Assembly (NCBI GenBank): GCA_021798975.1
Contig: JAJZBJ010000011.1
Location: 1-36,396, forward strand
DNA length: 36,396 nucleotides
Direction: 5' to 3'
Source: Bacillota bacterium
Lineage (GTDB): Bacteria; Bacillota; Sulfobacillia; Sulfobacillales; Sulfobacillaceae
Below are positions 13,632 through 18,487 of the stretch, in pieces. The notes under the pieces were generated by a model, which was not told the origin of the DNA, searched no databases, and saw only the letters and a program-made list of their open reading frames with translations. The translations under genes and the position numbers were made by a program. Each line of letters opens with the position of its first letter. Positions within the stretch are counted from its first letter, which is position 1.

Positions 13632-14945
13632 GTGGATACCCCGAACGAACTGGCGCAGGCTTGGCATCAGTGGTGGGATGCCGGCGTTCGGCTGATTGCC
13701 GTCGAGACATGGGATGAGGAGTTGGTGCAGGCCGCCGCCAATGCGCTGGCGGAAATCCGCGAAGCGCCTCTTTGGCATTGGAGTGCCGTCTCGGGGCTAA
13801 TCCGGCCCGATGACCGGCTGGGCGGTGCGTTAACGCGGGATGCCGATGTGTTGGCGGAGAAAATCCTCGCCATGCCGGCAGGCGTGGTGCTGGCCCGGGA
13901 CCTATGGCACGCGCCCTTGGATTACCGGGCCTTGCGTGCCCTGCGGGATGCGGCCCATCGATCGGCCCCGGTCTTCGTCATTGCCACAGCCGTCCCCGGC
14001 GTAGAAATGCCGGAGCTGTTGCGCCACGATATGGTGCGCATGCAGGCAGGAGGACCCAAAAGCCGTTTCATCGACCGATGGGCTGAGAGCGGCATCCCGT
14101 CCCTGGAGACCCGGGTGCGCCAGCAAGAAACGCGAATTCCGGGACTGGATTGGCTTCGCGCCGACACCGATTGGAGTGCGGTGGGCGGCCTCGAACGGCT
14201 GAAGACGTGGGCGGCTGAGCGCCGCTTGGCGTTGGATCCGGCGCGCGGGCTGCCGTTTCCTCGCGGGGTGTTGCTGTATGGGATTCCCGGAACGGGTAAA
14301 AGCGCCTCGGTCCGCGCTTGGGCGGGATCCTGGCGTCTGCCTTTGCTGCGTTTAGACTGGGGCGGTCTGATGGGACGGTACGTGGGGCAGTCGGAAAGCC
14401 GCCTTGATGCCGCTCTGAAGGTGTCGGAAGACATGGCGCCGGCCGTTTTGTGGATGGATGAGATGGATAAAGGGGTGGGTGCCGATGCGGACGGACACGA
14501 CAGCGGCGTCAGCCGCCGATTGACGGGGCATCTCCTGACCTGGCTGCAGGAACACGAGGCACCGGTTCTCCTCATCGCCACGGCCAACAGCATGCACGGC
14601 CTGCCTCCGGAACTTTTGCGCCCCGGCCGGTTTGATGCCCTATTCTTCGTAGATTTGCCGGATGCCCGCGCGCGCCGGGAAATCTTGGCTATTCATCTAG
14701 CCCGCCACGGCGTAGACGACCCTATCCCGTATTTAGACATCGCCGACGGCCTCGCGAATTTCTCGGGGGCGGACTTGGCCTCCGCAGTGGTGGAATCCTT
14801 GTTCCGGGCGGCTGCCCGCCAGATCCCTCTGACACCGGCGGTCCTGGCCGAAGCGAGCGCCAGCATCGTCCCCTGGGCCCGAACCATGGGAGAGGAATTG
14901 GAACGGCGCCGGCGGTGGGCTAAAGGGCGCCTGCTGCCGGCTTAG
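13632..14945 (+). CDS. AAA ATPase, Ycf46-like
   Basis: Degenerate N-terminal region followed by a single AAA module: VGGLERLKTW, Walker A GIPGTGKS, LMGRYVGQSESRL, Walker B AVLWMDEMDKG, ATANSMHGLPPELLRPGRFDALFFVDLP. Confidence 0.85.
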   Translation: MDTPNELAQAWHQWWDAGVRLIAVETWDEELVQAAANALAEIREAPLWHWSAVSGLIRPDDRLGGALTRDADVLAEKILAMPAGVVLARDLWHAPLDYRALRALRDAAHRSAPVFVIATAVPGVEMPELLRHDMVRMQAGGPKSRFIDRWAESGIPSLETRVRQQETRIPGLDWLRADTDWSAVGGLERLKTWAAERRLALDPARGLPFPRGVLLYGIPGTGKSASVRAWAGSWRLPLLRLDWGGLMGRYVGQSESRLDAALKVSEDMAPAVLWMDEMDKGVGADADGHDSGVSRRLTGHLLTWLQEHEAPVLLIATANSMHGLPPELLRPGRFDALFFVDLPDARARREILAIHLARHGVDDPIPYLDIADGLANFSGADLASAVVESLFRAAARQIPLTPAVLAEASASIVPWARTMGEELERRRRWAKGRLLPA

Positions 14946-15526
14946 GGCACGAAAAATTCGCGGAACGGTTTCATATCGGACTTGAGGCGGGTGGCCGGCT
15001 CTTCCGGCGGATCGGGGCGGACGCGATCAATGTGATCGGCGTGGAACGCGACCCATACCTGCGCTTCTTCGCGGCTTAAGCAGGATGACAAAGGCCGGGT
15101 TCTGAGGGCGTCTTCGGCACGCTTCAGGGCCCCTTGCTCATCGTCCAAAATGCGCCGGATTACAGGATGCGTGGGACGGAATCCCGTCCATCGGACGAAG
15201 GTGCTGGGCAACGCGTTGTTGCGGCTGTGATTGCACGATCGGCAGGCAATGACACAATTGTCCAGGGCGGTCTGCCCGCCCCAGCAAACCGGGATGACGT
15301 GTTCTAGCGTGGATCCGGGACCTTGACACCAGGCGCATAACCATCCGTCGCGACGCTGGACTTGCCGATAGATGCGGCGGTGTGCCAGTGGACGGTAATT
15401 CAGGTGCAGAACCCCGTCGGGGCTCATGGTCGCCAGTCCGTCACGCAAATTTTGTTCAGCTTTTTCGATGCTGCACGGCGTCAGCGGCCTGCCGCCTAAG
15501 TCGACGACGGGCACTTGGCCGGACAA
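14942..15526 (-). CDS. Small HNH endonuclease with N-terminal PLMP/RRXRR-like segment (IshB-like candidate)
   Basis: N-term VPVVDLGGRPLTPCSIEKAEQNLRDGLATM; HNH CAWC...LEHVIPVCWGGQTALDNCVIACRSCNHSRNNAL; no RuvC motifs; TTG start, distant AAGGAGG so start uncertain. Confidence 0.75.
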   Translation of the reverse strand: MSGQVPVVDLGGRPLTPCSIEKAEQNLRDGLATMSPDGVLHLNYRPLAHRRIYRQVQRRDGWLCAWCQGPGSTLEHVIPVCWGGQTALDNCVIACRSCNHSRNNALPSTFVRWTGFRPTHPVIRRILDDEQGALKRAEDALRTRPLSSCLSREEAQVWVAFHADHIDRVRPDPPEEPATRLKSDMKPFREFFVP

Positions 15527-15573
15527 GACGGGACTTTGCGAACCAGCCGCCTCCTTACATTGTCTGTAGGGTT

Positions 15574-15582
15574 ATTATAGCA
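15574..15582 (-). promoter_or_regulatory. Extended -10 promoter for the HNH gene
   Basis: Minus strand TGCTATAAT; no good -35. Confidence 0.4.
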
Positions 15583-15593
15583 TGCGTTCTTTC

Positions 15594-17102
15594 CTACCCA
15601 GGGCGGCGAAACGGATGCACCTTGTCGCGCGAGCGCCGATCGGTTCGGTCCAGTCCTTCGTGGTGGAAGAACAGTGCGCGCGCATTCGCGTTTACGATGC
15701 GCTGAAAGGAATCCGGCGAAAGCTCTGCTTCCAGACGCTCCATCTTTTCCCACTCTTGGGCGAAGTCTTGCGCCGGTCCGCCGCTGCCAAACAGCACCCG
15801 CTCCGCGCCGGCCGTGCGAATCGCTTCTTTAATGGCTCCCACCGGCGCTCTCGAGGTCTCCAGGTACACTTGCGGATGCCGCTCAGCCAGCACCAGCGAC
15901 TCCTCCAGATAGGGTGAGCGCTGGCCCATGGAATGCACGATGACCGGGACTTTCGGAAACTCCATGAGAAACTCATCCCAAAGGGCGGGACTGTCAAAGC
16001 GCAGGGGGGCCGGGCCGGGGCCGCTGTGCACCAAGAGCGGCCGCCCGAACGAGGAGAGTACTTCGCCCAGCTGGCGCATTGAGTCCGACCATGGAAACGC
16101 GCGATCCAATCCCGGATAGCAAAAGGCCCCAACGGCCCCGGCATTCATCACGTGGGCCAGATCGGCCGCATGTCCCGGGCGGGCCGGAGCCAAGGCTGCC
16201 CAACGGGGATTGTCACGGGCCGCCGCCAGCAGTTCTTCGGCCGCCGTTGCCGGTTCCGGCGACACCAGCAGCCCCCAATCCACCACCACGCGGCGTTCCG
16301 CCTCGGGTCCCAGGGCCCGTTTGGCGTCTAACGGCCGTCCTTCCAGGGGACGCACCATGGGCAGGTAGGCGGTGATGTCGGTCACGCCCAGTTGGATCAG
16401 CGGGGCCTCGGGATCACCGGCGATGAGAATGGTCTCCTGCTCATCGGCCATGCCCAGGACTCGACCTTGGTGGGTGATGAGAGCTCCGCCCACATAGGTC
16501 GCGCCTGAGAATCGGCCAGACAGCGGTGCCACCACCACCGTCGCGCTGATTTGCTGGCTGCGGCGAATGGCCAGTTCCTGGACTAGACCCCGTTCAGCCA
16601 GGGTACGAGGATTGGCCGCCATGACCACCAGATCAGGTGCCAGTTCCAGCGTGCTGACCCAGATGTCCTCGTCTAATGCGTCTAGCCCGGGCAGAATGAC
16701 GATGCGGCCCCACCGGGTCGAAATGGCCGCGATGCCCGGGCCGGGTTCGAACCATGGCCGCTCGGTCGGCTGGAACAACAGCTTGGCGTGGGAACCGGCC
16801 AACGTTCCATCTGGCTCGATAACCAGGGCCCGTTGCTGCTTCTTGCCGCTTTCCGGTTCCAGGGCGCGGATGCTGCCCGTCACCACCATGAGGTTGAGTT
16901 CGCGGGCTGCGCGGCTTAATCGCTCGGTATGGCGGTTGGGCAGGACCTCGACGGGATTGAGGCCCAAAAACCACTCCGGAAAAACCATCACGTCCACGCC
17001 GCGGCTGGCGGCGTACCGGATTTGCTCCAAGGCTCGAGAGGCGGCGGCCTCGACATCGCGTATGTAGGGGGCTTGGGCGACAGCAATGCGGGGGGTGGCC
17101 AA
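15594..17102 (-). CDS. Fusion of nitrilase-like domain and amidohydrolase-2-like domain; both apparently catalytically degenerate
   Basis: N-term nitrilase-like (VAQAPYIRDVEAA, VFPEWF, SHAKLLFQPTERPWFEPG) with no Cys; C-term LLVHSGPG, PVIVHSMGQ, YLETSRAPVGAIKEAIRTAGAERVLFGSGGP; TTG after AAGGAGGG. Confidence 0.82.
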   Translation of the reverse strand: MATPRIAVAQAPYIRDVEAAASRALEQIRYAASRGVDVMVFPEWFLGLNPVEVLPNRHTERLSRAARELNLMVVTGSIRALEPESGKKQQRALVIEPDGTLAGSHAKLLFQPTERPWFEPGPGIAAISTRWGRIVILPGLDALDEDIWVSTLELAPDLVVMAANPRTLAERGLVQELAIRRSQQISATVVVAPLSGRFSGATYVGGALITHQGRVLGMADEQETILIAGDPEAPLIQLGVTDITAYLPMVRPLEGRPLDAKRALGPEAERRVVVDWGLLVSPEPATAAEELLAAARDNPRWAALAPARPGHAADLAHVMNAGAVGAFCYPGLDRAFPWSDSMRQLGEVLSSFGRPLLVHSGPGPAPLRFDSPALWDEFLMEFPKVPVIVHSMGQRSPYLEESLVLAERHPQVYLETSRAPVGAIKEAIRTAGAERVLFGSGGPAQDFAQEWEKMERLEAELSPDSFQRIVNANARALFFHHEGLDRTDRRSRDKVHPFRRPG

Positions 17103-17191: not shown

Positions 17192-17456
17192 ATGAGGAGC
17201 GGGAGGGTCGAGGCCAGGGAGTCTTACCCGATTACACGCAGCGTGGATGCCAAAAATCTATCCTGTCCCCTGCCCATCATCCGCATGAAGAAGCCTTCGG
17301 GACGATTGAGGTGGGGGACGTCATTGAAGCGTGGGCTACCGACCCCGGTTCCCTCAGTGACGTGCGCGCTTGGACGCGCTGCGTAGGCCGCGACCTATTG
17401 GCAATAGACGAGGGCGAGGGTCCGGTGTTTCGGTTTGTGATACGGCGGAGCCATTA
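17192..17456 (+). pseudogene. TusA-family sulfur carrier protein with internal frameshift
   Basis: Frame 1 SVDAKNLSCPLPIIRMKK (Cys-Pro-x-Pro TusA motif), then frame -1 AFGTIEVGDVIEAWATDPGSLSDVRAWTRCVGRDLLAIDEGEGPVFRFVIRRSH* gives a full TusA fold sequence; 1-nt deletion at AAGAAG|CCTTC (about 17293). Start codon uncertain. Confidence 0.75.
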
Positions 17457-18487
17457 GATTCAAAGTCCCAGACTGTGTGCAAGAGGCTGTCAGCCCCCGG
17501 CCCTTTGGCGGCTTGGCTGGCCACCAGACTTTGCACCGCGTTTCCGGTGCGCCCCAAGATGCGGCTTTGGCCGTCAAAGTGAATATCCAAGAAATCCATC
17601 AGAAGTTGCGAATTGACCAGGACTTCGACGTTGCGGCACGCCGCCAGAGCCGTCAGGGATCCTTCCTCATCCCACTGCTGGCGGCGTAGACGGGCCGTTT
17701 CAGGCGGGTCGAAGGGCCACGGCTCGTCCCAGTACCAGGGATTGGCGGATGGCTGGGCCACCAGCCGGGCCCCTTTCTGGTCCAGCTTCTCCAGCACATT
17801 GACGAAATTCGGCTCGTTCGCGGTATGCGGTTTGACGAAGGCATCGTAGCAGATGGCGGTGGCCATCGGGATGTCGGTATCGGGCAGCCTAGTCACGGAT
17901 ACCGCTTGGTCCAGGGGGCCTGCCTTGAGCTCCAGCACGTCTTCTTGGGTGGGCACCAAGTTCACCTTTTTGGTGTGGTAGAACACATGGCCTTTGGGAT
18001 CGACGGTAAAGCTGAAGTTGTAAATCTTGGCGCTGCGCGGCTGGTAGCTATTGGTGTCGTATGTCCAGCGGCTCTCCGGGATGAGCGCGGACCCGGCCAC
18101 GACCGTCATGTTGTAGTCATGCGCCAGCCGGGACATGGTGCCGTGCCAGATGTGCCAGACGCGGGCTGCTCCATGCGCGAAGAAGGCCCGCTTGCTGCGA
18201 GTGGTGCCGTATTGAACCATGGTGCCTAAAAGCGGCCAGGTCTTCTTTTTGCCGATGGCCGTGAAGGCTTCCTCCAGGGTATGCACGCCCTGCAGCAAAT
18301 CTGGCTGGCCTTCGAGGAGCAAGAAGGTCGCGAGGTCTTCGGGAAACACGATCACGGCCGGACGGTCGGCCGTTCTCTGGGCTCGAGCGGCCTGAAAATA
18401 GCGATCAATCTTGTGATAGAACGCCTCTTTGGTGAAATAGTCGTCCGCACGCATGAAGGGTTGTGCACAAAAAATGTCGACGTCCAT
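17354..18487 (-). CDS. Nitrilase/carbon-nitrogen hydrolase family protein (catalytic triad present)
   Basis: VIVFPED (Glu), YHTKKVNLVP (Lys), ATAICYDAF (Cys); AAAGGAGA SD; Arg-rich C-terminal tail antisense to the TusA-like ORF. Confidence 0.85.
   Translation of the reverse strand: MDVDIFCAQPFMRADDYFTKEAFYHKIDRYFQAARAQRTADRPAVIVFPEDLATFLLLEGQPDLLQGVHTLEEAFTAIGKKKTWPLLGTMVQYGTTRSKRAFFAHGAARVWHIWHGTMSRLAHDYNMTVVAGSALIPESRWTYDTNSYQPRSAKIYNFSFTVDPKGHVFYHTKKVNLVPTQEDVLELKAGPLDQAVSVTRLPDTDIPMATAICYDAFVKPHTANEPNFVNVLEKLDQKGARLVAQPSANPWYWDEPWPFDPPETARLRRQQWDEEGSLTALAACRNVEVLVNSQLLMDFLDIHFDGQSRILGRTGNAVQSLVASQAAKGPGADSLLHTVWDFESNGSAVSQTETPDPRPRLLPIGRGLRSASKRARH

Follow-up and report, generated by a model that had tools for sequence, protein, structure and literature searches.

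IscB is the probable ancestor of Cas9. The related IshB proteins are reportedly about 180 amino acids (aa) in length. In the passage of PMC12477157 that cites Altae-Tran et al. 2021, they are described as RuvC-less PLMP-HNH relatives of IscB. IsrB is devoid of an HNH domain (PMC9581776), and the PLMP domain touches the terminal hairpins of the omegaRNA in both IscB and IsrB (PMC9581776, PMC9640706). PLMP is known as the omegaRNA-contacting part of these transposon-borne proteins, and it is an open question where PLMP and the HNH domain of IscB came from. The gene studied, PLMP-HNH, lies in a 36,396-nucleotide (nt) stretch, referred to as the window, from a Bacillota bacterium of the order Sulfobacillales, class Sulfobacillia (GenBank assembly GCA_021798975.1, contig JAJZBJ010000011.1, positions 1 to 36,396). 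Its product is likely to be a vertically inherited, single-copy, IshB-like chromosomal protein, which would most probably act as a guide-free, metal-dependent HNH nickase or endonuclease on cellular DNA.

The window protein resembles IshB in that its PLMP domain is followed directly by HNH, RuvC is missing and the length is about 190 aa. Features that may set it apart from the published IshBs are the syntenic, single-copy chromosomal gene, the acidic PLMP domain and the order-specific helical tail. By architecture the protein can be called IshB-like, a label drawn from the architecture ascribed to IshB and the secondary citation given above. The best profile match and the structural match of its PLMP domain were obtained with IsrB (DtIsrB, 8dmb). 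However, IsrB contains RuvC, a bridge helix, a TI domain and an omegaRNA but no HNH, whereas the window protein has an HNH and none of those four. With IscB it shares PLMP and HNH, which match in the same order (tblastn), but it has neither RuvC nor a HEARO RNA, its HNH falls in another clade and its PLMP differs in charge. The split RuvC with bridge helix of IscB was not found in the window protein, and the OMEGA system features looked for at the window locus, an adjacent HEARO RNA and an IS200/IS605 association, were not found there either.

PLMP and HNH domains of the window protein

The PLMP motif is replaced by PLTPC in the window protein. Positions 1-31 of the RRXRR model (PF14239) aligned with residues 5-35 at E=0.21, which is below the Pfam cut-off, and matches at E<=1 were obtained with 21 of the 33 family members (best E 0.0019). 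In the profile-profile comparison with hhalign, the first 50 alignment columns of the family were compared with the PLMP segments of IscB and IsrB, mostly from the same order and phylum, to which the PLMP seed of DtIsrB given in PMC9581776 was added. The determined scores were 57.8 with the pooled PLMP and 61.1 with the PLMP of IsrB, compared with a mean of about 9 (standard deviation 2.1) and a maximum of 17-19 in 100 column shuffles. In tblastn searches, IsrB-like proteins matched the PLMP position in the window with a best E of 0.001 and 43% identity. The AlphaFold2 model of the window protein, with a mean predicted local distance difference test (pLDDT) value of 88.7, was matched by Foldseek to DtIsrB (8dmb), the match spanning 42 columns at 2.2 A with an identity of 38%. 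The aligned range is not printed by Foldseek, and the match most likely corresponds to the PLMP part since IsrB has no HNH. The N-terminus is an IscB/IsrB-type PLMP domain and the match is beyond chance. A PLMP-type N-terminus had been proposed in the sequence-only reading, an earlier annotation made from the letters and open reading frames (ORFs) of the window; the proposal is borne out by profile, tblastn and structure, and the segment was not assigned to an unrelated fold.

The HNH domain was detected above the Pfam cut-off with PF14279 (1.4e-7) and PF01844 (2.4e-6). The superfamily residues CxxC, D/E-H, GG, N and CxxCN are all present, and C60, C63, H72, N86, C91, C94 and N95 are invariant in the 33 family members and in 14 sequences across orders. 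No match to RuvC was obtained with Pfam or tblastn inside or near the ORF, remnants included, and RRXRR covered only model positions 1-31. The complete HNH and the absence of RuvC announced by the sequence-only reading were thereby reproduced. In the C-terminal tail, an S+EEAQ+W motif is kept within the order and other orders carry different tails; the final 10 residues are disordered in the AlphaFold2 model.

Distribution, synteny and selection

The PLMP-HNH gene was found in exactly one copy in 37 of the 42 genomes of the order, and in 28 of the 30 genomes of good quality. Both syntenic sides, nitrilase-type genes upstream and the convergent argS/speB/speE downstream, were kept at 20 of 35 loci, and at least one of them at 29, over three families. 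Within the genus the identity was 69-95%. For the remaining families of the order it was about 52-63%, and another five families of the class carry diverged versions with 34-42% identity. When 399 genomes sampled across the phylum were compared, the full PLMP-HNH match was confined to this class. The identity declines as kinship becomes more distant, and PLMP-HNH is a vertically inherited gene of the chromosomal core. The gene is under purifying selection, with a ratio of nonsynonymous to synonymous substitution rates (dN/dS) of 0.036-0.042.

The own genome assembly, with a completeness of 87%, yielded no Y1 transposase, and no transposase was found among the scanned window ORFs, which are mostly ordinary metabolic genes. 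This agrees with the non-mobile context without TnpA that had been read from the letters. An association of the gene with IS200/IS605 elements was likewise not found, judged by the Y1 search in the own assembly and by the chromosomal synteny.

PLMP charge and the search for a guide RNA

The net charge of PLMP (about 40 residues) in this order was -1.2 (range -4 to 1, n=32), compared with +7.0 for IscB and +6.7 for IsrB-like proteins; members of the PLMP-HNH family from other orders have +7.1. Since PLMP contacts the omegaRNA hairpins in IscB and IsrB, the loss of charge suggests that RNA contact was lost in this order. The PLMP-HNH proteins of other orders (L237-L246, L064) combine a strongly basic PLMP with unrelated C-terminal tails, with no HEARO RNA nearby.

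The Rfam HEARO model represents the IscB-type omegaRNA. As a positive control, 20 RRXRR loci of these genomes were scanned with it and 13 matched, the IscB of the own genome among them. No HEARO match was found in the window. The same held for 11 loci of relatives and for 10 loci from other orders, one other-order locus being common to the two sets. The gap between the upstream gene and the PLMP start was mostly 74-149 nt where the neighbour is directly shared, a few loci having gaps of up to 310 nt. In 12 of 35 loci, where 0.75 would be expected, an exact TATAAT precedes the PLMP start by 51-80 nt. The two-hexamer consensus promoter scan of the window leader gave no match and no -35 box, and the candidate promoter is assigned by the recurrent TATAAT only. 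The short gaps and the position of TATAAT leave no room for a 200-nt RNA on the PLMP-HNH transcript, in line with the earlier remark that a typical omegaRNA would not fit. The gap of 67 bp (15527-15593) to the upstream co-directional gene, also given there, was found as described.

An omegaRNA hidden inside the upstream coding sequence was considered and rejected, as the third-position divergence was not lowered at its end (one genome pair). Folding z-scores calculated for the 160 nt upstream had no discriminating power and were discarded, the mean z of the IscB omegaRNA positive control being near 0 as well. In the own genome one IscB-type locus with HEARO RNA is present (G000:C60, L119), with three tRNA genes after it on the opposite strand. 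In some genomes of this bacterial family (L001-L030; G001, G019 and others) RRXRR (IscB/IsrB) matches reach about 26 per genome, many of them fragments.

The short leaders, the absence of HEARO and the charge loss of PLMP indicate that the protein is probably guide-independent. Several points weigh against this reading. HEARO matched none of the five loci read as IsrB-like, which limits its negative result to IscB-type RNA, and another type of RNA, or an RNA encoded elsewhere, may serve PLMP-HNH. The charge argument is indirect: the family retains the basic PLMP in other orders, and PLMP could bind RNA in a way unconnected with guiding. The nuclease activity is itself a prediction, as are the guide independence and the chromosomal role.

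One alternative is an RNA-guided or RNA-dependent IshB, in which PLMP would bind a trans-encoded RNA, either its own or the omegaRNA of IscB, and HNH would cut the strand defined by this RNA. The hairpin contacts of PLMP in IscB and IsrB (PMC9581776, PMC9640706), the IscB/IsrB copies in many genomes of the order and the strongly basic PLMP of other-order members are in its favour. It is nevertheless unlikely, given the missing HEARO at the window locus and its relatives, the too short leader and the acidic PLMP in this order. Moreover, G013 and G027 carry the gene with no detectable RRXRR protein, and the parts holding guide and target, RuvC, bridge helix and TI, are absent. A guide-free enzyme is preferred. 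The sequence-only reading had suggested that the protein may be domesticated or guide-free; the latter is better supported by leaders, HEARO and charge, while an origin of the protein as a cut-down IscB found no support in the HNH tree.

HNH tree and alternative origins

A McrA-like HNH enzyme of restriction or of defence against phages, with foreign or modified DNA as its substrate, would account for the structural match of the HNH to EcoKMcrA (65 columns, 2.3 A) and for weak PADLOC HNH matches. The latter are, however, limited to HNH. The gene is single-copy, syntenic and vertical across the order, whereas defence genes are usually patchy, and the convergent IetA-like AAA gene adjoins it at some loci only. 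We regard a defence role as quite unlikely. A phage origin was set aside, since the viral relatives match HNH only and none of 82 matches start within the first 10 model positions.

The HNH tree was built from 71 columns, hence its resolution is limited. A 97/97 branch separated the PLMP-HNH family and nearly all class relatives from IscB, VLNASYEPL-type and Paenibacillaceae HNH sequences. The main IscB HNH clade was supported by 100/99, with the PLMP-HNH family outside. Strong branch support sets the HNH apart from the IscB clade, so that the protein has little appearance of a trimmed IscB. Within these 71 columns, the family was also kept apart from the ordinary stand-alone HNH sequences that were sampled; a position among them would have contradicted the sequence-only reading. 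The tree is compatible with a PLMP that moved from IsrB/IscB as well as with one that moved to them.

The widespread VLNASYEPL-type HNH proteins of cyanobacteria, actinobacteria and others, the main alternative to a PLMP-type N-terminus, are likewise small and stand-alone, with an N-terminal extension before HNH. The window protein could be of this ordinary kind, its N-terminus merely resembling PLMP: some VLNASYEPL-type proteins align from residue 4 with 28-32% identity, and their N-terminus is weakly PLMP-like (score 27, null maximum 15). However, the direct hhalign score of their N-terminal segment with the window family was 13.2, not significant beside a shuffle maximum of 13.9, whereas PLMP reached 58-61. 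They also have a longer linker. With the null-level score and their place on the other side of the 97/97 branch, this explanation is very improbable. A Paenibacillaceae HNH protein (L070-L073, L251-L256) has a linker-HNH part near other-order members (model positions 15-108, E about 1e-22). No PLMP can be recognised at the N-terminus of this protein, for which reason it was rejected as a family member. This recurrent protein has an N-terminal cysteine-rich CxxC...CxxC and a long low-complexity middle.

PLMP and HNH matching IscB in the right order would also suit an IscB in decay, its RuvC removed by an internal deletion. This is hardly credible given the HNH outside the main IscB clade (100/99), the intact frame under purifying selection, the missing RuvC remnants and the deep vertical inheritance over the class.

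Features of the locus and neighbouring genes

The features of the locus are presented in Table 1. The coordinates of the ORF were given exactly in the sequence-only reading, which did not state the minus strand. The N-terminus quoted there, VPVVDLGGRPLTPCSIEKAEQNLRDGLATM, is present in the product but starts at the fifth codon and not at TTG. The start codon is uncertain: TTG gives 194 aa, and an alternative such as GTG at 15514 gives 190 aa. AAGGAGG lies about 23 nt 5' of the TTG. An imperfect leader hairpin at 15553-15571 (CCTTACATTGTCTGTAGGG on the + strand) overlaps AAGGAGG and was not seen in the leader of the nearest relative.

Table 1. Coordinates of the PLMP-HNH gene features in the window. 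Residue numbers of the PLMP and HNH domains count from GTG at 15514.
Feature	Position	Strand	Basis
PLMP-HNH coding sequence, stop codon included	14942..15526	-	ORF analysis; 32 further aligned homologues; dN/dS 0.036-0.042
PLMP domain, residues 1-40 (VPVVDLGGRPLTPC...VLHLNY)	15395..15514	-	hhalign; tblastn by IsrB-like proteins; Foldseek to 8dmb
HNH domain, residues 45-110	15185..15382	-	Pfam PF14279, PF01844; invariant columns
C-terminal helical tail	14945..15184	-	family alignment; model helices 117-158; other-order tails
AAGGAGG, ribosome-binding-site-like, long spacing to TTG	15545..15551	-	sequence
TATAAT, candidate -10 box just 5' of the ribosome-binding site	15572..15577	-	recurrence in 12/35 loci

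The stop of PLMP-HNH overlaps that of the convergent AAA ATPase gene (13632-14945, + strand) by 4 bp, an overlap already noted from the letters. The best PADLOC match of the AAA ATPase was IetA (2.9e-16), and it adjoins PLMP-HNH in some genomes only. The upstream gene at 15594-17102 (- strand) encodes 502 aa with a CN_hydrolase (nitrilase-like) half and an Amidohydro_2 half, and usually flanks PLMP-HNH on the upstream side throughout the order. A nitrilase-looking protein of 377 aa (17354-18487, - strand), for which Pfam gave nothing at E<=1e-5, is kept beside the locus across the order.

Discussion

In the preferred reading of a guide-free chromosomal enzyme, HNH would cut DNA by means of H72 and the conserved asparagines, and the four cysteines would hold the fold. 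PLMP may have a structural role or position the substrate, and further contacts to protein or DNA may come from the order-specific helical tail.

PLMP-HNH occurs in cultured Sulfobacillus species, with homologues in S. thermotolerans Kr1 and S. harzensis DSM 109850, and thus gives access to the function of PLMP by itself and to the question of whether any RNA guides IshB-like proteins. The charge difference of PLMP between the orders offers a natural comparison. It is conceivable, although rather doubtful, that PLMP-HNH represents an old guide-free and transposon-independent lineage of cellular nucleases in this class, and that such proteins were the source of PLMP, or of PLMP-HNH, for the IsrB/IscB line leading to Cas9. 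If this were true, the basic PLMP of some orders and the acidic one found here would reflect an RNA-contact surface that was gained or lost.
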